Below, in pieces: positions 6,141-29,456 of a DNA stretch of 33,461 nt (position 1 is its first letter; each line of letters begins with the position of its first letter). Source of the DNA: Candidatus Altimarinota bacterium (lineage in GTDB: Bacteria > Patescibacteriota > Gracilibacteria > UBA1369 > LOWO2-01-FULL-3); assembly GCA_016763975.1 (NCBI GenBank), contig JAESSS010000083.1, forward strand, positions 1 through 33,461, written 5' to 3'. A program made the position numbers and the translations under genes. The notes under the pieces are model-generated. The model worked only from the letters and a program-made list of their open reading frames with translations. It had not been told where the DNA came from and did no database searches.

Positions 6141-7295
6141 ATGAAAAAACTCCACCTATTCCTATTATATACGACAATATTCTTCCTGCAGGCATACCTG
6201 ATCCGTTTTAACATCGGATCTTATCCAACAAACGGCCAAGAAATCCTCATCGCACTAACAACTCTAAGTTTTTTGAGCATCAAAGTTTTCTCAAACAAAC
6301 TAATACAAACAATCAAAAACATTCACAAACACTGGGTATTAATATCTTTTATACTACTGACAATTTACTCAATAGTCGCAAGCGGACTGCACAGCAACCT
6401 CGATTTTTATCGACATCTCAAATTCACATTCTTTGCAATCACACTCTCATTTATCTTTTTAGAAACTTTTCAAACAGCAGAAGAAAGAGAAAAAGGAATA
6501 AAAGTAATGGGCATGGGAGCGATTATGTTTGGAATATTTTCCGCATTTTATAACTTTGCAGGACTAAACCTCGCCCACGACTTAAGACTCACTGGACCGC
6601 TAGACGCAGCAGTTTACCTCGCATTCTACATCGCACCATTCTTCATATATTTCACAATCAAAACACTTCAAAAAAAAGAAGCCCCAATTCTAGCAATCGC
6701 TGCAGCTCTCATCCTCCTTGCTACAAAATCAATGGGCGCAATCGCCGCAGCATTCTTTGTAATTTTATTTTATTTAGTCACTCGCAAAAAATTAAACAAA
6801 AAATCAAAAGCAGGATTAGCTTTAATTGCAATAATTATAGCTGCCGTAATATTTAACAACAAAATCCTCCCAACAATCCAAACAGAATACTCCAGCCTGG
6901 ATGAACGCGGCCAAATATGGCAAGTCTCAGCCGAATTCCTCAAAGAACCCAGCACTTGGATTGGCGGACTCGGACTCGGACAATTCCAAGAAAACTACGC
7001 CTCCAACGTCAAAGAAATCATCGGCCAAGAACCCCTCGACTACATCGTACTTCAACCCCACAACATTCTCTTACTCTTCATTTTTAACTATGGAATCTTC
7101 GGACTAATTTTCCTACTTTTCCTCATTTACAAAATATCAAAAAATGAAACATCGATATTCAGTCTAATATTCCTATATTTCTTGATTCACGGATTAATAG
7201 ACACGCCCTTTTTCAAAAACGATCTATTAATACTCTTTATGATATTCTCTCAATTAAGTTTGGGAAAGCCCTCCCACAAGTCCCCTCAAAACTGA
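6141..7295 (+). CDS. O-antigen ligase/Wzy-like polytopic membrane protein
   Basis: A 384-residue integral membrane protein with about ten hydrophobic segments. In its C-terminal half it has the Wzy_C/WaaL ligase-family pattern: ERGQIW near residue 255, a tryptophan then GGLGLGQF near 275-282 in the large outer loop, and QPHNILLLFIFNYGIFGL near 305-322. Members ligate or polymerise lipid-linked glycans outside the cytoplasmic membrane. That fits the WecA/TagO-type initiator encoded 2.5 kb away. The acceptor could be a lipid or a surface protein. Its 3' end overlaps the opposing tpiA gene by 42 bp, leaving no room for a terminator between them. The stop is TGA. Confidence 0.72.
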   Translation: MKKLHLFLLYTTIFFLQAYLIRFNIGSYPTNGQEILIALTTLSFLSIKVFSNKLIQTIKNIHKHWVLISFILLTIYSIVASGLHSNLDFYRHLKFTFFAITLSFIFLETFQTAEEREKGIKVMGMGAIMFGIFSAFYNFAGLNLAHDLRLTGPLDAAVYLAFYIAPFFIYFTIKTLQKKEAPILAIAAALILLATKSMGAIAAAFFVILFYLVTRKKLNKKSKAGLALIAIIIAAVIFNNKILPTIQTEYSSLDERGQIWQVSAEFLKEPSTWIGGLGLGQFQENYASNVKEIIGQEPLDYIVLQPHNILLLFIFNYGIFGLIFLLFLIYKISKNETSIFSLIFLYFLIHGLIDTPFFKNDLLILFMIFSQLSLGKPSHKSPQN

Positions 7296-7919
7296 TTCAG
7301 GATCATCGGCCTTAGTCACTCCAGAAGCCAATAAAACCCCAACAGAACCCAATTTTAAAGCAATTGTAACGTCTTCAGGATCACGAATTCCGGCACCAAC
7401 CAAAGTCTTGCCTTTACCACAAATTTTCACAGCTTCCTCAATTATTTCTGGACCAGCTTTGGAAACTGAAATATCACCACCAATCAACTCCGGAGGTTCC
7501 ACAGCAATCAAATCTGGATAATACTGAAAAATTTCCCGAGCACATTCTGGATCATTCGCACAAACTATAGTAAAAAGCCCAGCATCTTTAGCAGCTTTTA
7601 CATGATCTCTAATCTGATCTTTTGGAATTTGTCGTTCAGCATGATTCAAAATAGTACCAAAAGCACCCATTTTTTTCACCAAAGTAGGCAAAACATGACC
7701 AGTATTACTACCAAAACCAACATCATCAATATGTTGAGCAAAAACCGGAATATCAACCGCAGCTATAACCGCAGCCAAATCTAAGGCATTTACCGCAATA
7801 GCAATTGAAGCACCGGTTTCTTTTGCCACTTTTTCATGAATTTTAGCCAACTCGACAGCACGCTCCCCCACGGCACTTTCATAAACCTTAAAATTTACAA
7901 TTATTACTGGTAGCTCCAT
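7254..7919 (-). CDS. tpiA: Triose-phosphate isomerase, archaeal type
   Basis: Interconverts dihydroxyacetone phosphate and glyceraldehyde 3-phosphate in glycolysis/gluconeogenesis. At 221 residues it is about 30 shorter than typical bacterial TpiA and matches the archaeal form: VNFKVYESAVG with N9 and K11, AQHIDDVGFGSNTGHVLP, GTILNHAER with catalytic H93, AVEPPELIG with catalytic E141, and GVLLASGVTKADDP near the phosphate site. All catalytic residues are present. Its promoter lies back-to-back with that of the giant-gene operon. The C-terminal 13 codons overlap the convergent membrane protein gene. Confidence 0.93.
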   Translation of the reverse strand: MELPVIIVNFKVYESAVGERAVELAKIHEKVAKETGASIAIAVNALDLAAVIAAVDIPVFAQHIDDVGFGSNTGHVLPTLVKKMGAFGTILNHAERQIPKDQIRDHVKAAKDAGLFTIVCANDPECAREIFQYYPDLIAVEPPELIGGDISVSKAGPEIIEEAVKICGKGKTLVGAGIRDPEDVTIALKLGSVGVLLASGVTKADDPESVLRGLVGGLSQT

Positions 7920-7972: not shown

Positions 7973-8001
7973 TTGACGATTGAGGCTATTTTTGCTATAA
8001 T
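7973..8001 (+). promoter_or_regulatory. Near-consensus extended -10 promoter of the giant-gene operon
   Basis: TTGACG (7973-7978), exactly 17 bp, then TATAAT (7996-8001) preceded by a TGC extension (7993-7995). This is the best sigma-70 promoter seen in the window. The ATG follows 24 bases after the hexamer, giving a leader of about 18 nt that is almost all A/T and lacks a Shine-Dalgarno. Confidence 0.85.
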
Positions 8002-8025: not shown

Positions 8026-11000
8026 ATGACCCTCAACAGACTTAACAGCATTGAAACAAAAGCTGAGAGACACGGCGAAAGCATCTCCAGCCGTTTTGCC
8101 AAAGAATGTCCAGAACCAAAAGACATAAAATTCAATAAATTTGAAAGTAGCGATTTAGGCACAGACGACAATCGTGTACAAAAAATGAAAGAGCTTTTTC
8201 TCGAAACTATTGCAAAGGAAATCTTTCCAAACGACAACATTTTAGGAGAAAGGTTAGCAACAGATCTCGCATACTCATTCAAAGAATCTGCAACAGAATT
8301 AACAGATGAAAAAATTGCAGAACTGAAAATAACAAAACTTAGCTTCAAAAAACACGACGATGCCGGAAAAGATCTTCACATGATGAAGCTCACAGCACAT
8401 GGAAACAAAAATCTAGAATTCGAAATACCTCTACGTTCTAGTCTAACAGAAGCTTGGATTAAAAGACGGCACGAAGTAAAAAATAAGGCAATTAACAATC
8501 GAAAAAACGACTTATTCCAAGTATATACAAATGAAAGTAAAGGAATGGTCGGCTTTCAATTTAAACAAAGAAACCTAGAAATAGATAAAAAACCGGAAGA
8601 TAGCATCACAGAAAAAGGCTACGCTGGTTATTTAATTCGCAACGCAAAAAACGAAGTAGTATACGGAGTTCAAATAAGCGTAGAAGATCCAAACAAAATA
8701 AAACTACTAAAACTTATCGTTTCAGAAAGTCTGCCGCTACAATACATAATTGAAAAAAGCAGAGAAACAACTGTGAAAAAATTCACAATTAACGACATCG
8801 ATAACATCGGTGAAGCTGAAGTAGAAAACAATCCACAAGTAGAAAATCCACGAGAAACCCAAGAAGTTACAGGCGAAGATAAAGACAAACTTTTCAAAGA
8901 AGCTGGAATAGATATGTCTGACGCAATTAGTTATAAATTCCAAATAACAGGAGTAGAAAGAAGTTTCAAAAAACGAGCAACGGAAGAATTCATGAAAAAA
9001 TTCGATACACTTTTCAAAAACAAAAAAACATCACGTGCAGAAAAAGTACAATTAGTACAACACGCTTTTTATGCTCGACTTCTATCAATCATCAAACGCG
9101 ATGGTTCCATAGATAAAGAAAGCAAAAGCTACAACAAATGGAATGTCGGAAATGGAAAAGTAGGAACAGATGAATTCAACAAATCTTTTGACAACTCAAA
9201 TGCTGAACTAATAAAGTTAGTATCAAACACCCCAACAACAAGAGTAGATAGAACAACTGTCGCTCAAGGTGAAAGAAGAGCAGGGCAAACAACAGCAAAA
9301 CCTACAGTAAGACCTCGCCCAGAACCTCGTACAGAAGAAACTCCAAAAAGATCTACGGGCAAAACTCGAAGAACAGCACGTGAAAATCTAGACACACAAC
9401 AAACAAAAATTAGACACACAACATATCTCCAAGAATATAAAACTCTTTCAAAAAAAGAATTCACGTTAACCAAAAATGTTGGAGAAATGTACGAAGAAAA
9501 AATGAAAAACCGCTTCCTCAAAATGAATGGCAATAAAGCCGTCATAAACATCATGAAAAAAGAACCCTTTAAGCTACACCACACAGACATACCAAGAATT
9601 TTTGCTGAAATTGTTTCAGAAGACGACAATGACAAAGTTCATCTGAAAGACATTTTCAAATTCATGAAAGGATTCTCCACACAAGCTCAGTTCATCGTCG
9701 GAGAATCACTATTAAAAGACAAAGATAAGTTCATAGAAGAATTCCAAAAACTCGCAGACAACAAAAATAAAACCGCAGATGAAGAAAGAAAATACGCATA
9801 CATGTTTAAAGTTCTTTCCAAATCATTCGATCTCCTCAATGCGATCTCCAAATTAACTCACGGAAAAGTTGCACCGACAGATTGGGACAAAGGGCGCAGT
9901 CCAGGAACAAGAATTCAAACAAAAATGAAAGAGCAAAAGGATTTTTACGAAAACTTATACAAAAACCAAATCCCTCAAATGAAAGCCCTCTTCAAACTTT
10001 GTTCTTATGAACAAAATAAACAAGGAGATTGGGCAAAAATCATCGCACTACTTTTTGCAAATAACGTGGATCAAATGACAATGGTCAACATCGATGGCAA
10101 AACCTCAACAATAGACAGAGGAGAATTCCAAAGATACAACAGTCCACGCTCAGCATTTGACGACCTAATCAACACACCAGGAATGACAGCACCAGGTGAC
10201 AAAGGCGTAGAGATGATTCAAGAAGCACCAATGATCAAAGAATTAAATCGACTAATTACACTTGGCTTTTTAAACCAATACTTAAGAGAAAATACCGAAA
10301 AAGGAAATAAAACAAATTTTAAAGGATTAAAAAAAGACACAATATTTCAAAAAAGATTAAAACTAAGACTTTTAACAAGCCTGGATGCGGACACAATGAG
10401 TCCCCTCTCTATCATCGCTTTTCAAGCAGGATATTTAATCGATAGAACAGCAAAATTCGAAAATCAATTTGATAGACTCGAAACAAAAGAAGGTGAAAAC
10501 GTAAAACCTCAACATCCAGCATTAGAAAAAATGGTCAAAACAATGATCGCAGCTGGATACGGCAAAAAAGATATTACAAAAGTACAAAGCGCCGTACTTG
10601 GTGGAGCCATGACTCAAGTAACAGAAACTAGTCCAGGAAAGTATGAATTAACAGCCGGCGGTGTAGGCTCATCAATCAAACTCAGCGATGGATCAACACT
10701 AAACTGGGGATTTGGCGCAACAAAAGATGGAGAATTCCTAGGTGGTCTTGCACTAAAATGGGACATAGTAAAAACAGATGGATACTCACTACAAGGAGTT
10801 GCAGAAATTGGAGTCAACGGAGCTGCATTAGGAATGGGACACAATGCAGAAACGAAATACATTAATTTCTCACTATTTATAGGAGGCAATTTTTCATTCG
10901 CAAATATTATCCCAACAGTGGGAGGAAGTTTCATGCTTTCATGGAATGCAAAAGCGCAATTCGAAAGAGAAAGAACATCAAAAGAAGAAAAAAGCCAATT

Positions 11001-13356
11001 CCACAAACTATGGAATGACTGGAAAAAACTACCTTCCGGATCAAGTAAAAGTAAATTCGAATCACTACAAAAAATAAAACCACTGTGGGACAAACTAAGA
11101 CCACTACAAGACGATTTCAATCTTACTCCAGCTCACATCATAAAGATGATAGACAGGATTAAAGAAGAAATCACCAGTGAAACACTAGACGAATTAGCAT
11201 CATCCCCTATCCCTATAATTTCATCAGTTGGAATAGTTATGGTGGGGGCAGTGCCAATTCCAGTAATCGGTCTTAAAATCGGTTCTGCAAAATTAAACAC
11301 ACCAAATAGAAAAGAAATTTCAAAATTACTACCACTAATATCTGATAGAAGAACTTTTGAAAAAGCTCTGAAAACAGTGGAAGCAGGAAAAACTAAATTT
11401 CACAACGAACTTCCACAACTAGTTTATGGAAGAGATGGAGAAATCTTAATTTTAGAAAAAAGTCGTGAAACAAATCTAACAACAATCAAAAAAGAACCAG
11501 ATTTAAAAGAATATAACGAAGCACTAAAACCAAGTCGCATACGTTTAGAAAAAGATGAAAATGGAAATACAGAATTAATAATTGAAAAAACTGAAGACAA
11601 AGATAGTGAAATTTATCTCGATCCAAACGTAATTGGCATCCGAATTAGAAAAGAAAATGGAAAATTATACTTGGAAGGAGATATTAGTGATTTAATTATT
11701 TCTAGAGAAAGATTTAAACTGCCTTTCCCACGAGATCGATTCAAAGCATCAATTCGCGACGTAATAGTGATCAGACAAAGCTCATCACTAAAAGCTGGAA
11801 ACGGAACAATGTACATCCAAGAAAAGTCTGGATCGATGTTTCAAAAGCTTAGAGCAGAAAAAAACTATGAATTACAAAGAGGCGCATCTGATAGAGCTCA
11901 AACAAACATCTACGAAGGACACGCACGTGCACCACTGTCAAGAATTGACCCTACAATAGAAAAAAACAAAGACCGAAAAACAGCAGTCAAAGAAAGACTG
12001 TTAACAATGAATACAATCAAATATCAAGACTTTGCCGAACAATCACTCGGAAAAGACTTTTTCATAGAACTTGATGATTTTTACACAAAAAACAAAAAAG
12101 CATTTGCTGCGGTGGCAGATAATCCGACAAAAATAATTCAAATCTTTGCAAAAGCCGGAGTAAAACTAAATGATCGACAAGCAAGTGTCGCTACAATGTA
12201 TATTCTCGATAAACACTTCACAACATTGGTGAAAAAGAAAAACGCACCAGCAATAAAACGGGGAATTGAAAATCGAATCAAATGGATCAGACCAATTTTC
12301 AAAAAACAATTTGGAGAAATTTTAACAAGAATAGGAGAAGACCCTACAAGAGCTGGAGAACTAACTGACATGATCATGATGAACATTTACGATGATGTCC
12401 TACAAAAATTGAAAAGCGGAAATCTAGAAAGTTTCACAAATCAATTTGCTATGGCAGTACCAGCAGGTGCAGCATTCTTCTCAGGATCACGCACCATAGA
12501 AAAAGGAACAAAACGAGCCATGGTAATGACACGCACACCAAACTCAGCAAGCATGTCACAAATGCCAAGAGTATTTGGTTTCCTCAGTGACACAATCGAA
12601 ACATACGAATTAGATGAAGAAAACCCTACAAAAAGACTTCTAGCACAAGTACTTCTCGAAGCTGCAAGTCCAACACCAAAAGAAGATTTAGATTTCCTCA
12701 CAGCTCCCTTGGCATTAAAATTAGCTTCAATGAGTGTGAAATCAAAAAGTGGAAAAGAATTAGCTCCACTAATGGTAGGAGGATTAGAAAACTATAAACT
12801 AATAAACGAAATCTTTATTGATAATTCAAAACTTAACTCTCCTAAACACAAAAAAGCATTCCAATATTTCAAAGAACTTGTGACCGGAGTACGCAATGCG
12901 CAACTAGCTGGAAAAACTTTCGAAAGAAAACTCAGTAACGGTGCACAAATAAAAATAAGAATGACCACAGAAATAATGTCAGGAGCATACACAAAATGTG
13001 CAAACGCATCCTTCTATGTAAGAGAACTCGGATCAATCGAAGTAACTGAAACAATAAAAGGATTAGGAGTTCGTGGCGTCTACAACGAAACAATTGACCG
13101 CATAGAATCAAAACAATCCAAAATCCACGCTTCCGCATTTGCCGGAGTGGCAGTCGTTCAAGCAACTCCCAAAAGAACACCAGTACAGAAAGAAGGTGGC
13201 AAACATTCAAAAGGTGGACCAAAAGAAAACCCACCAAAAGGAGCAGGAGGAAACCCAAACAGGAGACCAACTGACACAGAACCAATCGTATATTCAAAAG
13301 GCCAAGCAAAAGGACCAAACAAAGCATCAGGATCAATTAGCCCATCAGGACACTAA
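8026..13356 (+). CDS. Giant protein of unknown function (1776 aa)
   Basis: I do not recognise a family. No signal peptide is seen at the N-terminus. Residues 1-400 are charged and mixed alpha/beta. A basic, Pro/Arg/Thr-rich, probably disordered linker spans about 402-470. A long, mostly helical, lysine-rich stretch runs to about 860. Residues about 865-985 are glycine-rich with short alternating strands (for example LSDGSTLNWGFGAT, KYINFSLFIGGNFSF), like strands of a beta-barrel or curved sheet. A hydrophobic segment rich in Pro, Gly, Ile and Val lies near 1057-1090. The last 60 residues are a Gly/Pro/Lys-rich disordered tail. Cysteines are very rare. It has the strongest promoter in the window and is followed 5 bp later by the giant exported protein, so the two are almost certainly co-expressed. 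Confidence 0.9.
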   Translation: MTLNRLNSIETKAERHGESISSRFAKECPEPKDIKFNKFESSDLGTDDNRVQKMKELFLETIAKEIFPNDNILGERLATDLAYSFKESATELTDEKIAELKITKLSFKKHDDAGKDLHMMKLTAHGNKNLEFEIPLRSSLTEAWIKRRHEVKNKAINNRKNDLFQVYTNESKGMVGFQFKQRNLEIDKKPEDSITEKGYAGYLIRNAKNEVVYGVQISVEDPNKIKLLKLIVSESLPLQYIIEKSRETTVKKFTINDIDNIGEAEVENNPQVENPRETQEVTGEDKDKLFKEAGIDMSDAISYKFQITGVERSFKKRATEEFMKKFDTLFKNKKTSRAEKVQLVQHAFYARLLSIIKRDGSIDKESKSYNKWNVGNGKVGTDEFNKSFDNSNAELIKLVSNTPTTRVDRTTVAQGERRAGQTTAKPTVRPRPEPRTEETPKRSTGKTRRTARENLDTQQTKIRHTTYLQEYKTLSKKEFTLTKNVGEMYEEKMKNRFLKMNGNKAVINIMKKEPFKLHHTDIPRIFAEIVSEDDNDKVHLKDIFKFMKGFSTQAQFIVGESLLKDKDKFIEEFQKLADNKNKTADEERKYAYMFKVLSKSFDLLNAISKLTHGKVAPTDWDKGRSPGTRIQTKMKEQKDFYENLYKNQIPQMKALFKLCSYEQNKQGDWAKIIALLFANNVDQMTMVNIDGKTSTIDRGEFQRYNSPRSAFDDLINTPGMTAPGDKGVEMIQEAPMIKELNRLITLGFLNQYLRENTEKGNKTNFKGLKKDTIFQKRLKLRLLTSLDADTMSPLSIIAFQAGYLIDRTAKFENQFDRLETKEGENVKPQHPALEKMVKTMIAAGYGKKDITKVQSAVLGGAMTQVTETSPGKYELTAGGVGSSIKLSDGSTLNWGFGATKDGEFLGGLALKWDIVKTDGYSLQGVAEIGVNGAALGMGHNAETKYINFSLFIGGNFSFANIIPTVGGSFMLSWNAKAQFERERTSKEEKSQFHKLWNDWKKLPSGSSKSKFESLQKIKPLWDKLRPLQDDFNLTPAHIIKMIDRIKEEITSETLDELASSPIPIISSVGIVMVGAVPIPVIGLKIGSAKLNTPNRKEISKLLPLISDRRTFEKALKTVEAGKTKFHNELPQLVYGRDGEILILEKSRETNLTTIKKEPDLKEYNEALKPSRIRLEKDENGNTELIIEKTEDKDSEIYLDPNVIGIRIRKENGKLYLEGDISDLIISRERFKLPFPRDRFKASIRDVIVIRQSSSLKAGNGTMYIQEKSGSMFQKLRAEKNYELQRGASDRAQTNIYEGHARAPLSRIDPTIEKNKDRKTAVKERLLTMNTIKYQDFAEQSLGKDFFIELDDFYTKNKKAFAAVADNPTKIIQIFAKAGVKLNDRQASVATMYILDKHFTTLVKKKNAPAIKRGIENRIKWIRPIFKKQFGEILTRIGEDPTRAGELTDMIMMNIYDDVLQKLKSGNLESFTNQFAMAVPAGAAFFSGSRTIEKGTKRAMVMTRTPNSASMSQMPRVFGFLSDTIETYELDEENPTKRLLAQVLLEAASPTPKEDLDFLTAPLALKLASMSVKSKSGKELAPLMVGGLENYKLINEIFIDNSKLNSPKHKKAFQYFKELVTGVRNAQLAGKTFERKLSNGAQIKIRMTTEIMSGAYTKCANASFYVRELGSIEVTETIKGLGVRGVYNETIDRIESKQSKIHASAFAGVAVVQATPKRTPVQKEGGKHSKGGPKENPPKGAGGNPNRRPTDTEPIVYSKGQAKGPNKASGSISPSGH

Positions 13357-13361
13357 AAATT

Positions 13362-16300
13362 ATGAAAAAATTCTTACAAAAATTTACAGTCGGACTATTC
13401 GCATCATTGCTAATATTTTCTAATGCTTCAGCCGTAGAAAATATATCAAACTTCACACCAGAACGACCTGGCATCCCCTTTATAGAAGGACAGTCAGGAT
13501 TATCATTCCCCTCTTTCAACAATTTCACCAATAACCCAAATATTTCAATTGGGAGTAGATTCGGAGACGAAAGACTATTTTTAGTAGCAAAACATTGTTC
13601 CGGCGGAGAAAGCGGGTGTAAAGATCAAAATTATTTCAATACAGTTCCAAGCGAAACAACAGGCAAAACCATGAAAGAAGGTGATGTAATTCGTTTCGAA
13701 TTGTATTTTCACAATAATGGTGAAGACTCCTATGATGGAGCCGCAGGAGGAAGTCCTGACGCTGAAAGCGTAGACATTGGAATCGACCTGAACAACATTT
13801 TAGGTCAAGGAGGTGTGATGAGACCAAGAGGTTTCATAAAATGGAATAAAGACTCTCATGACACAATCCCTACATCATTCACTGAAAATGGAACAGAAAA
13901 AAGAATAGTAACAGACGATATTCAAGCAGTTTTCCCTGCAGGAGAATTTGGACTGGAGCCTGTTAAAGACTCGGCATGGCTGACAGTCCTTCTTTCAGAA
14001 CCAAACACATTCTATGATAAAGCGGTTACAGAAAAGACTGAACTAAAATTTGATACGGTTGTGCCAAATAATATCCTTATCAACGCAACACCACATTTCA
14101 AAGAAGATAAGATGTGGATAAGCTTCGACAGAATCCCAGGATGTTTCCGTTATAGCGGTGCCGCATATTTCGATGTAATAGTAACTAAAAAAACTCCACC
14201 ACCTCCACCACCTCCAGTAAAAGAACCTCTTTGTACTAATTTAGACATTACTCAAGTAAATGGAGATGGATTACACGAACTCTCAGGCAAATTTGGATTG
14301 AAAGACGTAATCACAGCTGACCTTGAGATTGGTTTACAATGGACATCAGATGATGCGAATAGTCAATTTACAAAAGCAGACGGAAGCCTAAGCAAAGGAT
14401 CAGCCAACAGCTCCCCCACTGAGAAGATCTTCTACAAAGGAGATTCGCCAGTAAATGTAAAACTAGTAAATGTACCAGCAGGAATAGACATCTCAGCTTG
14501 TACAAAAAAACTAGTCTTCCCAGAAACTTCAAACTTTTGTACTGAACTCAACTCAACAGCAGTACCACAAGGATTTATCAATGGAAAGCCAGCCTTTAAG
14601 CTAGATACCAACTTTAAATTCAAAGAAGAAACACCTACATCAACAACAATAAATTACTCTTCACCAAACTCTACGAACAAATTCTTTGAACAGCTTGGTG
14701 TAGCAAATCAAAAAATAAAAGAAATTACACAAAAATTCTTTGTTGGAGACACAAAAGTCGATGTATCAGAAAATAGTGAAATTTTCTTTACAGGAGATGG
14801 ACCAATTGAGGTGAAACTCTCAGGAATATCAAAAGAACTCGCAAACGAAACAGTTTGTAAGGCCAGCCTAGAGTTCCCAATCTGTAACAAACTAAGAGTT
14901 AACTACCAAACACCAAAAGTAGGAACAGTAACAATATTTAGCGCAAAATCTCTAGACCAAAACGGAAAACTATTCAACGGAGCAATGACCTACAAAGTAT
15001 TGCCTGGATATGGCCAATTCTTCAAGGATCAACCAGAAGGAATAAAAATCAACGAAGAAGATCAATTCATTGAATGTGAAGACTGTCACAAACTCTCAGT
15101 CAAAAGCGATTTAATCTGTAGTGAACAAAAAAGTAATACTATCTCTGGACAAGACATTATCAACGTATTCAAAGGAACAAATATTCTAAAAATACCGGTA
15201 ATCAAACAAAAAATCGAAATAGTTCCACAAAAAAAGACAATTCCAAACATGGAAAACTTTTTACAAACAATTATCGACCTCAATAACGGGAAATTTACAA
15301 CAACCCCACCAATAAAAAAGAAATTTAATCCCCTACTTGGGCTAACTAAAGCTGAAGAAGAAATAATCGACAACATAAAAAACGGTAGCGAAATAATCAC
15401 AGTCAACCCAGGAGAAAAAGTATATTTCCTAGCTGAAAAAGCTGGAACAAACGTCATAGAAATTTCTACTGATTGTTCAACAAACAACTGTAACCGAAGT
15501 TTTAACATTATTGAAGAAAATTTCTGTACAGAACTTCAAGTAAGCAAACACCACGATCTAATCAAAAACACTGTTTCAGAATTCACTGCAAAAGCACAAG
15601 GCTCAAGCAATGACAGCTTTAATAGCATGATCACCTACTCCGTCGACGAAGGCTTCGGATCATTTTCAACTGAAAAACCAAGAGGCATTCCAGATAGCAA
15701 TTCTGAAATCGACCTTATCCCCGGAACAGATCAAACACCAAGAGAACCAATCGGTGGATTCTGCCAAGACATCCGCAAAGCAAATTCAATCACCGTAAAA
15801 CCAGGTACAAAAGTATATCTACATGCCTTAAAAGAAGGTGAAAACGTCGTACACGTAGAAACAAACTGTGCAGATGGAAATTGCAAAAAGGACTATGACA
15901 TCCTAGGTGAACCTCCAACAATCCCATTATTCTGTATCGCCATCGATACCTTTGACGATGGAGTACAACTAGAAAAAATTGAGATCTCAAAAGATTTCTA
16001 CAAACTTTCTACAAAAACCAGCTACACAGAAACAGTTGAAAACGCTAAATCCAAATTCACTTCTAACGGAGGTGTTTTCCTCAAAAGACCAACAGATCCT
16101 CTATTAGCAGGAATCTTTGACACACTTTTACAAGTGGATGACATCGAAAAATTAGAAAAACTATTCGGCCTCGACGACACAACTATCGACGATATCACCG
16201 GAGAAATATACTTCAAAGCTGATCCAAACGCCGATATAAACTCAACACTAAAAGTAGTTGCAGTCGACCACGAGGCAAGTTGTAACGAAGAATTTAAATT

Positions 16301-18488
16301 CGTAGCACCTGAAACTCCAGACGAATGTACAAACTTAAACCTCGATCCTGTAGCCACTAATTTTGACCGCATCACTGCACCAGAATTAAAAATCACAGGA
16401 GACTTCAAAGACCACGACGGAAATATGACCGTCACCGTAAAAGATGGCAAAGGAGGAATCATCAAATTTGGTGACAAAAAATCAGAAGCAAAAAAACAAT
16501 TAGTTTTCACAAAAGAAGAAATCGACTCAGCAACAAGTGAACTACTAATCGATTACGTTGCAGAAAACAGTGAAGACAACAAAATAACTATAGAAGCATT
16601 TGCCTCAAACATCTGCCAAGATCAATTCACTACAAAAATACAAATAGAATGTAAAGATCTCGAAATTGTCCGTCCTGACTCCCCTTGGGAAATTGACGAC
16701 AACGACGACGAGCAACTATTCAAAATCAAAGTAAGTCCTTCTAGTAGGGCAAAAGATTTCACATATGTTTGGGAAGTAATTTCCGGAGATGGTGAATGGG
16801 AAAACGGGGACGAAGATGACAAAACCCACGGAGTACTCTACAACCGACTCGAAGATTTTGACGACGATACAAAAGTAAAAGTATATGTCCAAGGTCAAGA
16901 ATCTGAATGTTACGACACCATCAGGACTCGAAGTGAAGAAGAACCTGAACGTAAACCAGAAATAAAAAAATACGTTTATCCAACAAATAACTCACAAAAA
17001 TACGAAGATAATGTATTAAATGTCGGTGGAAGCACAAATTACATCACATACAACATTATTTTTACCTCAGGATCTGAAACTACTTCAGTAAAATTAAAAG
17101 AAGATAAATTTAAATCTGCAGGAAAAATCGGCTCAATCAATATCTCTAACGGCGGAAACCTCATTGCAGAATCAATGAAAATTACCGTTAAAGAAAATGA
17201 CAGAACTTCTTACACAATATTTAACGGAGAAACCAGAGACGATCTTAAACCTTATGCCAAAGCTTACAACTGTTCAAACGGTACACAAAATCGAAGGGTA
17301 TGTTTAGACGACAAAGACTTCCTTGACGCAAAACAAGATTTCTTTAATGGAAAAGACTTAGAATTCAAAAACATTAAAAAAGGATCAGAAACAAAAATCT
17401 ATATTGATGTGAAAATGAAAAATCGTTCAAACATCAACACTGCTTTCTGTGAACAATTAACAAAAGTAAGTGGCTGTGGAGCGGAATTCCGCAACGTTGC
17501 CAGTTACAAAGACAATAAAGGAAACATCGGCCAAGACGATGCAAAAGTAATCATACTCTGCCCATTCATCCTTACTAGACAAGGTGGCGACGTTTTTTAC
17601 CACGACATTCTCAACACAGGAATCGATGTATCACAATGTTCTGAAGTCAAAGGATCAACCGGAACGGGAATCACTCCTGAAAAAGAACGTCCTGGAGAAG
17701 TACCAAGAACCGGCTCCGGCGACCTTCCACAAGAAGCAAAACTCCTAGAACTCCCATCCCACGACGTATGTCGCTTCTCAAACCAAGCTGACAACGTAGA
17801 AGGCTACAACAACGCCCTCAAAAACTTCTCATCCACTATTTGTGAGCTACGTGCAGACGTTGCCGAAGACTGGAAAGAAAGAAACATCAACGCAAAAATC
17901 GCTGCAAACGTCACCAGAATTTCACGTTGGGGCGGATTAAACAAAAATACAACTATCAACTCTACAAGCGACTTATCTCAATTCGACAATTCATCTAGCG
18001 GAGTATTCGTTGTTGAAAATAACGATCTAATCATTGGAGCAAACGGTACATACCGAATCCAAGGAAAAGGATCTATTCCAGCTGCACAAACCTATATTGT
18101 GAAAAACGGAAACATCCGCATCGAATCAAATATCGAATACGGAACAACTAACTTTTCAAAACAAAGAGAAATTCCATCAGCTGCATTTATCGTAATCGAC
18201 GGTGACATCATTATTTCAAGCAATGTCACAACCATCGACGGAATCTTAATGGCAGTAGATTTAGACCAAAGTGGCAACGACGGACAAATCAAAGCCAAAG
18301 GCCAAAGTACTAAACTACTGAAAATTAACGGTAGTGTATTCGGAAACGTCTACGACCTATTCCGCAACCGTGTCGGGGCTGGTGACCCAACTCGCAACGA
18401 AGGATCAGTCACAATTCACTACGATTCAAGACTGATGCTCAACACTCCACCGGTAATCACTGAGTTCGTGGATTTGATTCCAAACTAG
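13362..18488 (+). CDS. Giant exported surface protein with seven Cys-bounded modules (1708 aa)
   Basis: A Sec signal peptide (MKKF..., hydrophobic core, ASA cleavage near residue 26) shows export. Residues about 65-275 form a domain with the RFELYFHNNG motif of DUF11-like surface repeats. Seven proline residues (279-285) then lead into a tandem array. Seven modules each open with a cysteine in a (F/L/I/E)C-x-x-(L/I) context and close with another: 291-380, 393-499, 508-710, 722-841, 858-974, 989-1085 and 1097-1183. A further beta-rich domain spans about 1195-1395. The final 309 residues, from C1400, form a distinct beta-rich module with repeated short strands (YIVKNGNIRIESN, AAFIVIDGDIIIS). 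No C-terminal sortase signal or membrane anchor is evident. Function is unknown; a surface adhesin, stalk or S-layer-like role is plausible. Confidence 0.9.
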   Translation: MKKFLQKFTVGLFASLLIFSNASAVENISNFTPERPGIPFIEGQSGLSFPSFNNFTNNPNISIGSRFGDERLFLVAKHCSGGESGCKDQNYFNTVPSETTGKTMKEGDVIRFELYFHNNGEDSYDGAAGGSPDAESVDIGIDLNNILGQGGVMRPRGFIKWNKDSHDTIPTSFTENGTEKRIVTDDIQAVFPAGEFGLEPVKDSAWLTVLLSEPNTFYDKAVTEKTELKFDTVVPNNILINATPHFKEDKMWISFDRIPGCFRYSGAAYFDVIVTKKTPPPPPPPVKEPLCTNLDITQVNGDGLHELSGKFGLKDVITADLEIGLQWTSDDANSQFTKADGSLSKGSANSSPTEKIFYKGDSPVNVKLVNVPAGIDISACTKKLVFPETSNFCTELNSTAVPQGFINGKPAFKLDTNFKFKEETPTSTTINYSSPNSTNKFFEQLGVANQKIKEITQKFFVGDTKVDVSENSEIFFTGDGPIEVKLSGISKELANETVCKASLEFPICNKLRVNYQTPKVGTVTIFSAKSLDQNGKLFNGAMTYKVLPGYGQFFKDQPEGIKINEEDQFIECEDCHKLSVKSDLICSEQKSNTISGQDIINVFKGTNILKIPVIKQKIEIVPQKKTIPNMENFLQTIIDLNNGKFTTTPPIKKKFNPLLGLTKAEEEIIDNIKNGSEIITVNPGEKVYFLAEKAGTNVIEISTDCSTNNCNRSFNIIEENFCTELQVSKHHDLIKNTVSEFTAKAQGSSNDSFNSMITYSVDEGFGSFSTEKPRGIPDSNSEIDLIPGTDQTPREPIGGFCQDIRKANSITVKPGTKVYLHALKEGENVVHVETNCADGNCKKDYDILGEPPTIPLFCIAIDTFDDGVQLEKIEISKDFYKLSTKTSYTETVENAKSKFTSNGGVFLKRPTDPLLAGIFDTLLQVDDIEKLEKLFGLDDTTIDDITGEIYFKADPNADINSTLKVVAVDHEASCNEEFKFVAPETPDECTNLNLDPVATNFDRITAPELKITGDFKDHDGNMTVTVKDGKGGIIKFGDKKSEAKKQLVFTKEEIDSATSELLIDYVAENSEDNKITIEAFASNICQDQFTTKIQIECKDLEIVRPDSPWEIDDNDDEQLFKIKVSPSSRAKDFTYVWEVISGDGEWENGDEDDKTHGVLYNRLEDFDDDTKVKVYVQGQESECYDTIRTRSEEEPERKPEIKKYVYPTNNSQKYEDNVLNVGGSTNYITYNIIFTSGSETTSVKLKEDKFKSAGKIGSINISNGGNLIAESMKITVKENDRTSYTIFNGETRDDLKPYAKAYNCSNGTQNRRVCLDDKDFLDAKQDFFNGKDLEFKNIKKGSETKIYIDVKMKNRSNINTAFCEQLTKVSGCGAEFRNVASYKDNKGNIGQDDAKVIILCPFILTRQGGDVFYHDILNTGIDVSQCSEVKGSTGTGITPEKERPGEVPRTGSGDLPQEAKLLELPSHDVCRFSNQADNVEGYNNALKNFSSTICELRADVAEDWKERNINAKIAANVTRISRWGGLNKNTTINSTSDLSQFDNSSSGVFVVENNDLIIGANGTYRIQGKGSIPAAQTYIVKNGNIRIESNIEYGTTNFSKQREIPSAAFIVIDGDIIISSNVTTIDGILMAVDLDQSGNDGQIKAKGQSTKLLKINGSVFGNVYDLFRNRVGAGDPTRNEGSVTIHYDSRLMLNTPPVITEFVDLIPN

Positions 18489-18504: not shown

Positions 18505-19476
18505 ATGAACAACCTCTTTCTCTTTTACGGTGAAAACACTTTTGCAAGTTCCGAGAAACTAAACACTTGGAAAAAAGCCTTTATACAAAAATATGGCGAA
18601 GAAGGTTTAGAGGAGATAGAAGGAAAAAAACTTATTATAAAAAATTTCATCACAGACGCCGAATCCCTACCTTTTCTCTCTGAGAAAAGAATGTTAATCG
18701 TAAAAGATTATTTAAAAAAAGGAAAAACCGACGATCAAAAAATACTCGCAGCAAACTTAGAAAAAATACCAGAAAGCACTGTCATCATCTTTCAGGAATC
18801 AGAAAGTCCAGACAAACGACTAAGCCTCTACAAAAAATTAAAGAAAATAGCCAAAACTGAAGAATTCAAAACTCTCACAACATCCCAATTAAACAAATGG
18901 ATTCTCGACAGATCACAAACCCTAGGCCTAAACATGTCATTTTCCGCAGCCAGCTACCTATCTGAACACTGCGGCAGCGACCTCTGGACCATCAAAAATG
19001 AAATCCAAAAACTAGAGTCCTACGCAAATGGCCGCACCATTACCGCACAAATGATCAACGAAATCACCACACCATCACTACACAGCTCAATATTTAAACT
19101 AACTGACTCTATTGCCGCAAAAAAAGCCAAAGGAGCTATCCAAACCCTCACCATTCTCAATGAAAGCGGCGAAGACCTGATCCGCAGCTTTTACATGATA
19201 GTGCGCCATTTCCGCATTCTAATTCAAATCAAAGAATTATCCCAACAAGGAGAAAGTCGCAGTTCAATGCAGAAAAAACTAAAACAACACCCTTTCGTAA
19301 TCCAAAAAAGTGCATCCCAATGCCAAAACTTTAGCCAAGAAAAACTGACACAAATATACGCAAATCTCCTCATAATCGACACCAAAACCAAAACAGGCCA
19401 AATCCAAATCTCCAGCGTAGACAACAGAGCCCTACAATTAGAAGTGGAAAAGCTAATTTTGCAATGCTGCAGCTGA
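18505..19476 (+). CDS. holA: DNA polymerase III delta subunit HolA
   Basis: Clamp-loader subunit that opens the sliding clamp. At 323 residues it is of normal length. It begins with the characteristic LFLFYGENTFASSEKLNTW. An AAA-like fold follows without Walker catalytic residues, as expected for delta, with FLSEKRMLIVKDY and STVIIFQESESPDKR. The C-terminal collar domain includes SAASYLSEHCGSDLWTIKNE and RSFYMIVRHFRILIQIKEL. It starts 16 bp after the giant exported protein gene on the same strand. Read-through from the strong upstream promoter is possible, as no terminator is seen. The link with the surface-protein genes is probably only positional. Confidence 0.9.
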   Translation: MNNLFLFYGENTFASSEKLNTWKKAFIQKYGEEGLEEIEGKKLIIKNFITDAESLPFLSEKRMLIVKDYLKKGKTDDQKILAANLEKIPESTVIIFQESESPDKRLSLYKKLKKIAKTEEFKTLTTSQLNKWILDRSQTLGLNMSFSAASYLSEHCGSDLWTIKNEIQKLESYANGRTITAQMINEITTPSLHSSIFKLTDSIAAKKAKGAIQTLTILNESGEDLIRSFYMIVRHFRILIQIKELSQQGESRSSMQKKLKQHPFVIQKSASQCQNFSQEKLTQIYANLLIIDTKTKTGQIQISSVDNRALQLEVEKLILQCCS

Positions 19477-26665: not shown

Positions 26666-28459
26666 CTATTCTAGACGAATAACAGCATTTATGTCGGAAT
26701 CTATAATATCAAATACACGTACCCCTTTAATCACAGCATCCGTATTCACAGTGATATCAACCAATCTTGGCCTCAATACATTCAAAGAATTAGCAAACAT
26801 GTCTCTCAAAGTTTGATATGCACTAAATCTAGCCTTTAAATCAGCACCCAATTGCTCCGCTTCAATAAAGTTATTCAAATTGAAAAAAGAATCTTGCCCC
26901 TCAAGATTCTGAGCTGAACTGAAATAAGCCTGCTCAAAAGCATCTCTCTGAACGGCCAAAGCATCAAACTCAGCATCCATTTCCTCCATTTTTAAACCTA
27001 AAACATCATAAACCAAAAGCCCTTCATCAATGATTACGGTCATTTCAACAATATGAGATTCTATCGCAACACGACGATCAACCCTCAAATCCAACAAAGC
27101 ATAAACATCTGTCGAATAAATATTCTGCATTTTCCTCAAAAGATCAAAATACTGAATATAGGCTTCATCAAAACCAACAGCAAAAGCTTCTCCCAATTCA
27201 AAAGAAGTCAAAACACCATCAATACTCCCGGCCCTCGCCAACTCCCCTTCACCCAAAACATAAGCAGATTCCACACCATCAGAATCAGCACCATCATCCT
27301 CCACCACTGGACGTTCCTGCACATTCTCAACCGGTGCAGGCCGATCACTCACAGTTCCACTATCAGAACCAAACAAAAAGTTTAATCCACCAAACATGAA
27401 AAGTAATAGCCCAATAGCCAAAATCAAAATCGTAGAACATCCAACAATCAAACGTTTTTTAGTAATACCCGCCTGTTTTAAAATATCCCAAACCTCAGAT
27501 TTGAAACCATGTAAATCCTCAACATTATGCTCCATTACTTCATCAATGCCACCCTCAGCACCAAGTTCAATAAGTTCAGGATCATCAGCTTTTTCCGAGA
27601 CACTAGTCTCCTCAGCATGATATTCATCCACCTCATCACTCTCCTGCTCCTGGGCTTGATCAATATCATCAGGCGAAGGCAAATCAGACTCAACAATATC
27701 CTCAACTTCATCCACAGCTGCCTCCTCCACCTTATCTTTTTCAATCAAAAATGGATTACTTGGCACCTCCTCTTCAATAACCTCCTCCTTCAAAGATTTT
27801 TCACCTCCACTCTTATGCTCAACTGGAGGAAGCTCTGGCAAATCACCACTAACTAAAAATGGATTCACCGGCGGAACTACATCAGCTTGCGCTTCCACAA
27901 CTGGCTCTGGAACTGGCTCTGGAACTGGCTCTGGAACTGGCACTACCTCAGACTCTAGCACCGGTTCCACAACTGGCTCTGGCTCAGCTTGCACTTCCAC
28001 AACCGGCTCTACTACTGGCGTCACTTCAACCGAAGAAGCATCAATACCTCCAGGTTCCGCCTCAGGCTCTGCTACTGGCTCCGATCCACCTTCAACCGCA
28101 AAAGGATTAAAGGGATTTGCTGGCACTTCAGCTTCTGAAACAGACTCAACTTTTGCTTCAACAGAAGTTTCAGCCGAAGCTTCCACAGCATTATCTTCAG
28201 GAGATTTTTTCCTACGACGACGCCTTCTACGTTTTTTCTTTGGTGCAGCATCTTCCTGCCCTGAAGACTCATTATTCACAACATCTTTCTTAAGAGAATC
28301 ACGATCTAAATCGCTCTTAACCTTTGTTTTTTCTTCAGAAGAAGTTTTTTTAATCTTTTCCCAAACATCCGCAGCACTATCCTGCCTCTTTTTTGAAGCA
28401 TCATTGCCTTTTTCAGAACCATCATTACCAGTGCCGATATTTCCTTTATCCTCAGCCAT
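26666..28459 (-). CDS. Bitopic membrane protein with long disordered acidic cytoplasmic arm
   Basis: A 597-residue protein of no family I recognise. From the ATG at 28457-28459, residues 1-330 are low complexity. They hold a polybasic run (KKKRRRRRRRKK, about 74-85), a Pro/Glu/Val repeat (PEPVPEPVPEPV, about 176-187) and four NPF motifs (115-117, 118-120, 199-201, 235-237). One transmembrane helix lies at about 337-363 after a KKR stop-in signal, so the arm should be cytoplasmic. The last 230 residues, outside, are mostly helical. An in-frame TTG three codons upstream is an alternative start. It is 15 bp upstream of the rel gene. Function unknown. Confidence 0.85.
   Translation of the reverse strand: MAEDKGNIGTGNDGSEKGNDASKKRQDSAADVWEKIKKTSSEEKTKVKSDLDRDSLKKDVVNNESSGQEDAAPKKKRRRRRRRKKSPEDNAVEASAETSVEAKVESVSEAEVPANPFNPFAVEGGSEPVAEPEAEPGGIDASSVEVTPVVEPVVEVQAEPEPVVEPVLESEVVPVPEPVPEPVPEPVVEAQADVVPPVNPFLVSGDLPELPPVEHKSGGEKSLKEEVIEEEVPSNPFLIEKDKVEEAAVDEVEDIVESDLPSPDDIDQAQEQESDEVDEYHAEETSVSEKADDPELIELGAEGGIDEVMEHNVEDLHGFKSEVWDILKQAGITKKRLIVGCSTILILAIGLLLFMFGGLNFLFGSDSGTVSDRPAPVENVQERPVVEDDGADSDGVESAYVLGEGELARAGSIDGVLTSFELGEAFAVGFDEAYIQYFDLLRKMQNIYSTDVYALLDLRVDRRVAIESHIVEMTVIIDEGLLVYDVLGLKMEEMDAEFDALAVQRDAFEQAYFSSAQNLEGQDSFFNLNNFIEAEQLGADLKARFSAYQTLRDMFANSLNVLRPRLVDITVNTDAVIKGVRVFDIIDSDINAVIRLE
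27899..27941. repeat. 12-bp tandem repeat, about 3.6 copies
   Basis: The unit AACTGGCTCTGG occurs three times in succession, followed by a partial copy. It lies in frame within the bitopic membrane protein gene and encodes the four-residue repeat PEPV on the minus strand. Degenerate copies flank it. In-frame slippage would lengthen or shorten the proline-rich arm without frameshift. Confidence 0.9.
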
Positions 28460-28483
28460 AATAGTCAATTAACCTATCTTAAT

Positions 28484-28583: not shown

Positions 28584-29456
28584 ATGAACTACATCCACCC
28601 AAGGATAAATATTCAAGAAATAGCAGAGGCTTGTTCAAAAGGCACCGATAACAAAATAATCACCAGTTTAGAACAAATTCCCCCAAGCAAAGTCACAGGA
28701 ATCATAGAATCAGTCAAACACGACATACTAAACTCCCCTCTTCTTACCCTAAACATCGCTAAACGTTTTATACACGCCCAAATACGCAAAAGAACCAACG
28801 GTCATCACCGCACAATTCCTGACCCAACACATCCTGCTTTCTTAGTCATGCCTGGATATTTCGGCCCAAACGACTACCTCCGACCTCTTTTAAAAGTAAT
28901 ACAAAGAATCACGGGCTGGGAAGTAATAAACCTGCCAGAATTCGACAAAATCAGACCGAGAGGACGAATAAAAAGAGACACTGAAACTTTCATGAAAACT
29001 TTAAGAGAACGAAAAGCCCCTACAATAGGACTTGGACACTCAAAAGCCGGGAAAATACGCCCTGAGGTAAAAAAACAACTACGTGAAGAAGGGCTTGAAC
29101 ACATTATGCCTGGCAGCATACTAATCGCCCCAGTTTCCAACGGCATACGCCCTGAAGCAGATCTCATCGCTAGATTCATCCCCAGCAAAACTATTCAAGA
29201 AATGCGCGCCAAAAACGCCCCAGACCACCATACCGAAGAACCAGACGAAGATCTTTTGATCATTACACCAGAAAACGGAGATATCTTCACCTCACCCGAA
29301 GAAAGCTTCGTTAATGGATGTACAATGATCCTCACTCAAGGCCACGAAGGACATCTGCAACAATGTATCGATCCTCGCACAATAATCTTCCAAACAGCAG
29401 TAAATGCAGCTGTAATAATGGCCGAACAAATCGATGCACTAAAAATTGCCGCATAA
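28584..29456 (+). CDS. Alpha/beta-hydrolase-like protein with GHSKAG nucleophile elbow
   Basis: A 290-residue soluble protein without a signal peptide. An N-terminal helical region (1-80) precedes a hydrolase-like core. LVMPGYFGPNDYLRPLL (87-103) resembles the strand and oxyanion loop of lipase-type alpha/beta hydrolases. GLGHSKAG (149-156) fits a G-x-S-x-x-G nucleophile elbow with S153. ENGDIFTSPEES could provide an acid (D233), and TQGHEGHLQQ a histidine (H254 or H257). Family members include lipases, esterases and acyltransferases; no substrate can be assigned. It is a single gene between divergent and convergent neighbours. The nearest -10-like sequence, TATTAT at 28550-28555, is weak. 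Confidence 0.7.
   Translation: MNYIHPRINIQEIAEACSKGTDNKIITSLEQIPPSKVTGIIESVKHDILNSPLLTLNIAKRFIHAQIRKRTNGHHRTIPDPTHPAFLVMPGYFGPNDYLRPLLKVIQRITGWEVINLPEFDKIRPRGRIKRDTETFMKTLRERKAPTIGLGHSKAGKIRPEVKKQLREEGLEHIMPGSILIAPVSNGIRPEADLIARFIPSKTIQEMRAKNAPDHHTEEPDEDLLIITPENGDIFTSPEESFVNGCTMILTQGHEGHLQQCIDPRTIIFQTAVNAAVIMAEQIDALKIAA

Follow-up and report, generated by a model that had tools for sequence, protein, structure and literature searches.

Two giant genes, here called P1 and P2, stand side by side in the window (the whole stretch analysed, 33,461 nucleotides, corresponding to contig G000:C68 of a 1.45-Mb genome in 103 contigs from the Ca. Peregrinibacteria/Peribacteria lineage), and the same pair recurs throughout the order. 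We tentatively read P1 and P2 as a cell-envelope operon with a strong promoter that is ancestral in the Peregrinibacteria order and has recognisable counterparts elsewhere in the class. The investment of 10 kb of a 1–1.5-Mb genome, placed under a near-consensus promoter and kept across the order and beyond, must serve something central to the lifestyle of these ultra-small, uncultured and probably host-dependent bacteria.

The gene pair, its promoter and its neighbours

The features of the locus are as follows.

7254–7919, minus strand: tpiA, triosephosphate isomerase (Pfam and synteny), the fixed divergent upstream neighbour in the order
7973–8001, plus strand: sigma-70-type promoter TTGACG-N17-TATAAT with an extended -10 TG, 11/12 matches, ending 24 bp before the P1 start
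8026–13356, plus strand: P1, 1776 aa, without signal peptide, cysteine-poor (3 Cys), with a variable N-terminal third, a conserved core at about 440–1720 and a Gly/Pro-rich tail
8896–9267, plus strand: P1 residues 291–414, a module common with a 549-aa protein lacking a signal peptide (BLASTP E 9e-16, 35% identity)
10606–10944, plus strand: P1 residues 861–973, glycine-rich amphipathic eight-strand beta meander, porin-like (DSSP of the AF2 model)
12997–13005, plus strand: C-x-N motif of P1 (KCAN; Cys1658/Asn1660), within the conserved domain at the C-terminus
13362–18488, plus strand: P2, 1708 aa, Sec-exported by sequence, cysteine-rich (31 Cys), acidic
13362–13433, plus strand: P2 signal peptide, residues 1–24 (sequence and hydrophobicity)
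13437–14186, plus strand: P2 N-terminal conserved domain, residues 26–275 (conservation profile)
17544–18485, plus strand: P2 C-terminal domain, residues 1395–1708, the best-conserved part, beta-solenoid-like
18505–19476, plus strand: holA, DNA polymerase III delta subunit (Pfam and synteny), the fixed downstream neighbour in the order

Reading of the open reading frames places the two genes on the plus strand with a 5-bp intergenic gap, as the initial annotation had described; its further claims of a signal peptide on P2 but none on P1, and of a near-consensus promoter before P1, were confirmed as well. A TrmB-like gene also lies downstream of the pair, and most of the other nearby genes are housekeeping genes. 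Two further open reading frames in the window (26666–28468, minus strand, 600 aa, and 28584–29456, plus strand, 290 aa) have no Pfam match.

The promoter is the sole 11/12 site in 12.6 kb; taken together, promoter-like sites are no more frequent than in shuffled sequences (27 vs 27.6). An 11/12 element with a 17-bp spacer precedes 12 of the 25 complete P1 genes, as against 2.8% of the 702 genes of the complete relative genome G005, a control in which many genes sit inside operons; because of this difference, the P1 promoter is not a chance occurrence. With the threshold lowered to at least 10/12, the proportions are 16/25 and 9.5%. As the genomes are related, the count reflects conservation and not 12 independent events. 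Judged by its sequence, the P1–P2 promoter is among the most consensus-like in these genomes, P1 and P2 are probably made from one transcript, and under the reading preferred below the module would be highly expressed.

P2 starts with MKKFLQKFTVGLFASLLIFSNASA|VEN, by its sequence a typical Sec signal peptide, and a hydrophobic N-terminal segment (1.5–3.0) is seen in each of the 35 P2 homologues whose N-terminus is complete. The best 19-residue hydrophobicity window within the first 60 residues of P1 reaches -0.83, so that a hydrophobic N-terminal segment is absent, and no P1 homologue has one (-1.8 to 1.0). Mean cysteine content is 1.9% in P2 vs 0.2% in P1, and the high value for P2 fits an oxidising, extracellular place. 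Being large, cysteine-rich and equipped with a Sec signal peptide, P2 conforms to the type of giant exported CPR surface proteins; of the surface system proposed in the initial annotation, it is the P2 part that these features support. Three other lines of argument were discarded. Cysteine poverty of P1 is not diagnostic of export, because 19% of the G005 proteins of at least 300 aa are equally poor; the complementary charges seen in the window (P1 +58, P2 -64) are not kept in relatives, where the net charge of P1 ranges from -149 to +156; and an odd number of cysteines in P2, which might have pointed to a disulfide with P1, occurs in 14 of 32 sequences, which is no signal.

Neither P1 nor P2 scores high enough for any family of Pfam, NCBIfam, PHROGs or PADLOC; sequence searches of PDB returned no significant match for either, so the pair deserves the label undescribed that it had been given. 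Of the two outcomes that the initial annotation named as speaking against its proposal, a strong match to a characterised family and homologues that never co-occur, neither was observed. A ketoacyl-synthase hint in P1, below threshold (17.9 bits vs a cut-off of 20.8) and present in a single homologue, was rejected, as was assignment to an anti-phage defence system, for which no PADLOC model matched. A literature search in one open-access library found no paper on the pair. The P1–P2 pair, the P1 family and its C-x-N signature are absent from the families and literature searched; large exported proteins as such are a known feature of the clade (PMC8080830, PMC4736985).

Conservation of the pair in the order and in the class

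The named relatives of the P2 C-terminal domain belong almost exclusively to Candidatus Peregrinibacteria or Peribacteria. Searching 60 relatives with single sequences detected P1 in 28 of them and P2 in 53. Reading of 40 loci revealed that, where the search had missed P1, its place is occupied by an open reading frame of 1574–2671 aa without a signal peptide, which is recognised as P1 by the P1 C-terminal profile or by the C-x-N motif; the lower count for P1 is therefore a matter of search sensitivity. The order tpiA< P1> P2> holA> was observed, as far as contigs reach, at 36 loci (window included) from 10 families, it is interrupted solely by contig ends, and none of the intact loci of the order in this set has only one of the two genes. 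Thus P1 and P2 co-occur wherever contigs permit the test within the order, as the conserved adjacency suggested earlier would have it. The gap between them falls between -8 and +45 bp in 26 of 32 measured cases, and the proteins range from about 1480 to 3340 aa (P1) and from about 1010 to 2290 aa (P2). In two loci of family f8 (L077 and L079), a gene for a 178-aa product separates P1 from P2. Adjacency within the order is weak evidence when taken alone, because tpiA, holA, gatA and other genes are likewise syntenic across it.

The P2 C-terminal domain is found across the class, including the lineages that read through TGA. In the recoded lineages and in one other, P2 is preceded by a large open reading frame without a signal peptide (1465 aa in L255, 1299 aa in L256, 1021 aa in L257 and 683 aa in L260). 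These four partners have exactly one cysteine each, always within a C-x-N located 63–158 residues from the C-terminus (GCMN, ECLN, VCMN and ECTN, respectively). Comparison of P1 with the class-level partners gave no HMM match, and hhalign gave nothing significant, its lowest E value being 0.02, with L256 over the beta meander of P1; from the motif, position, size and missing signal peptide, we infer that these partners are homologous to P1. Homologues of the L256 and L257 partners were sought in 192 genomes of the class, and in all 11 genomes with both genes on one contig, from lineages that translate TGA as an amino acid (G194, G188, G098, G175, G162, G157, G183, G219, G216, G134 and G144) the partner is followed by P2 on the same strand within a few kb; this count leaves out G186, where the two lie on different contigs, and weak partner matches in G164 and G065. 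The class-level pairing is the best evidence that P1 and P2 are functionally paired, because there the flanking genes differ. One of these counterparts (L256:6736–10635, from the TGA-recoded genome G194) carries a peptidoglycan-binding domain, PF01471 (34.8 bits vs a cut-off of 23).

Another family of the class (L252, L254 and L259) has a P2-like protein with no P1-like neighbour, which shows that not every lineage of the class has the pair. In these three loci a divergent DnaJ-like gene lies upstream of the P2-like gene, and in L252 and L254 a membrane protein of 935–942 aa follows it. The two-gene system put forward in the initial annotation holds with respect to the pairing, and its scope proved wider than envisaged: it is a core operon of the whole order, and further lineages of the class have counterparts.

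Domain anatomy of P1 and P2

The conservation profile of P1 shows a variable N-terminal third and a conserved core that starts near residue 440. In the C-terminal alignment of 33 sequences, the cysteine and asparagine of C-x-N are the sole invariant columns, and the motif is present in every P1 with an intact C-terminus. As a control, C-x-N was found in the same interval in 9 of 300 other large proteins; among 68 cysteine-poor large proteins only two had it, and both turned out to be P1s (L082 and L091) that had been missed earlier. This signature lets the P1 family be recognised where sequence search fails.

An AF2 model of P1 residues 532–1726, built from a 32-sequence alignment, was of moderate quality (pLDDT 72.6, pTM 0.49) and consisted of a large helical part (532–860), an eight-strand antiparallel meander (861–973) and more strands near the C-terminus. 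Foldseek comparison of P1 with PDB and viral structures gave nothing significant; the top matches of the meander were porins (OprD/Opd family, OmpG and OmpU), with a best E value of 0.4. Most meander strands show alternating hydrophobicity, and the amphipathic-beta score of this region lies at the 94–100th percentile in all 30 homologues, with 12–24% glycine. The Omp85 family (PF01103) was not found in 10 genomes, including the source genome, in which positive controls were detected; P1 thus has a barrel-like look, but none of the known machineries would insert it.

The 549-aa protein that has the module of P1 residues 291–414 in common with P1 is encoded elsewhere in the source genome (contig G000:C83; L208:5649–7298) and carries an apparently intact C-terminal M23 peptidase domain (E 1.8e-11). 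Its gene sits between rpsG-like and fusA-like genes. The common module is present in few relatives, and a search of 33 order-level P1 sequences or N-terminal parts revealed no wall-binding domain. The link to the M23 protein and the peptidoglycan-binding domain of the G194 partner make an extracytoplasmic location of P1 likelier.

Many P1s, and also unrelated Peregrinibacteria proteins that lack signal peptides, have the motif K-E-x-R-[LF]-[VIL]-[FY] within about 45 residues of the start (L201:1449–3998, L202:1788–5456, L203:4298–7972, L204:12435–15122, L205:4918–5550, L206:6404–7018, L212:2–10678 and G005:C1:235665–237797). Of its 8 occurrences in an unbiased sample of 1184 proteins, 5 fell within the first 50 residues (p 0.002), or 4 of 7 when P1 is excluded; no enrichment was seen with a looser pattern, and the window P1 is without the motif. 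It is possible that this motif is a sorting tag. The L212 region (G012:C6) comprises three consecutive genes for proteins without signal peptides (over 1868, 360 and 1325 aa) and without Pfam families, all of which begin with a form of E-x-R-[LF]-[VIL]-[FY]; relatives of the 1325-aa protein occur in 20 of 60 genomes.

In P2, the N-terminal conserved domain is followed by a poly-proline linker and then by cysteine-bearing repeats, which may be beta-sandwich domains of an extracellular type. The C-terminal domain of about 310 aa is modelled by AF2 as a short beta-solenoid, with pLDDT about 90 over most of domain residues 150–280. The DUF7305 model matched this domain below threshold (E 0.037, 14.4 bits vs a cut-off of 27), and the first-ranked Foldseek match in PDB, the ComZ pilin, was not significant (E 1.4). 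A second, distant version of the solenoid domain of the P2 C-terminus is present in a 1312-aa protein of G005 (C1:160953–164891), whose gene lies two genes away from one for a protein that has a PilX-like N-terminus.

Interpretation and comparison with known systems

In the envelope reading that we tentatively favour, P2 would leave the cell through Sec, become oxidised and be presented at the surface as a large modular protein, with its beta-solenoid C-terminus as a fixed working or assembly end. P1 would end at the membrane or wall, probably by a non-Sec route, and would assemble with P2 via its conserved beta and C-x-N domains, so that the two form a structure on the surface or across the wall that serves contact with other cells. 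A role in attachment to a host cell, the example given in the initial annotation, is possible. This reading is supported by the pairing across the order and at class level, the C-x-N motif, the promoter, the cysteine content of P2, the P1 meander, and the links of proteins without signal peptides to the wall; it is weakened by the moderate AF2 model, the non-significant Foldseek matches, the lack of Omp85 in the genomes searched and of a wall-binding domain in order-level P1s, and the existence of P2-like proteins without P1-like neighbours.

A real possibility, if a less probable one, is that P1 is a cytoplasmic scaffold or inner-face organiser, targeted through its N-terminus, which supports envelope assembly or P2 export from inside. 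Such a role would agree with the missing signal peptide in every P1, with the large helical part of the model and with an N-terminal motif common to other large proteins without signal peptides, some of which have hydrophobic segments. However, a beta meander of this porin-like, glycine-rich kind would be unusual in a cytoplasmic scaffold, and the modules that P1 has in common with wall-acting proteins also argue against it. An unlikely extension of the envelope reading would make P1 the founder of a class of giants that lack signal peptides and are exported by an unrecognised non-Sec route, several of them with the K-E-x-R-[LF]-[VIL]-[FY] tag, and would have P1 and P2 together form a contact apparatus that crosses the wall, contains a barrel and goes back to the ancestor of the class.

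Likewise unlikely is an attachment-plus-pore module, in which P1 would be released toward another cell to form a pore or insert into a membrane, and P2 would be the adhesin drawing the partner cell near. The porin-like meander, together with the lack of an own Omp85 in the genomes searched, would suit such a role, as would the lifestyle of Vampirococcus, of the related Absconditabacteria, which fastens itself to its prey, consumes it and has giant surface proteins (PMC8080830). However, P1 shows universal vertical retention and not a patchy, fast-changing distribution, no export route for it was found, and its Foldseek matches are not significant. That P1 and P2 are mere neighbours with unrelated functions, held under one promoter by slow rearrangement as the synteny of tpiA, holA, gatA and others might suggest, is improbable given their tight spacing, the lack of an intact order locus with only one of them, and the recurrence of the pairing beside different neighbours in other class lineages.

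The pair, which has no annotation in any resource searched, is a defined target for studying the cell-surface make-up of CPR bacteria and whether they export very large proteins without a Sec signal.

Among known systems, an S-layer role would be compatible with the strong promoter; no SLH or S-layer domain was found in P1 or P2 with Pfam and NCBIfam. Two-partner secretion (type Vb, TpsA/TpsB) resembles the pair in its adjacent genes and in combining a large, secreted, solenoid-like protein with one that has barrel-like strands. However, TpsB is an Omp85-family outer-membrane protein with a signal peptide and POTRA domains, and P1 has neither a signal peptide nor an Omp85 match; membership was rejected because of the lack of Pfam matches in P1, its non-hydrophobic N-termini and the absence of PF01103 from the 10 genomes. 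Outer-membrane porins (OprD/Opd family) and VDAC/Tom40 are the top Foldseek matches of the P1 meander by local geometry, at E values of at least 0.4 and TM-scores of at most 0.09 on the query, and outer-membrane insertion machinery was not found in the genomes searched. The best structural match of the P2 C-terminus, itself not significant, is ComZ of Thermus thermophilus, a type IV pilus-tip pilin with a beta-solenoid (PMC6561018; DUF7305). P2 differs from type IV pilins in its length of 1000–2300 aa and in having a Sec signal and, by inspection, no prepilin leader; with DUF7305 below cut-off and Sec-type N-termini, it was not assigned to the ComZ/DUF7305 pilins. The nearest parallels are the giant surface proteins of CPR bacteria, as described in the parts of the reports consulted on Vampirococcus lugosii (PMC8080830) and on the large, exported, cysteine-rich proteins of Peribacteria (PMC4736985). 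Those parts describe single proteins with known domains, and neither a conserved pairing with a giant partner that lacks a signal peptide nor a C-x-N motif nor a class-wide operon; like P2, these proteins are very large, exported and cysteine-rich, come from the same broad clade and have proposed roles in contact with other cells.
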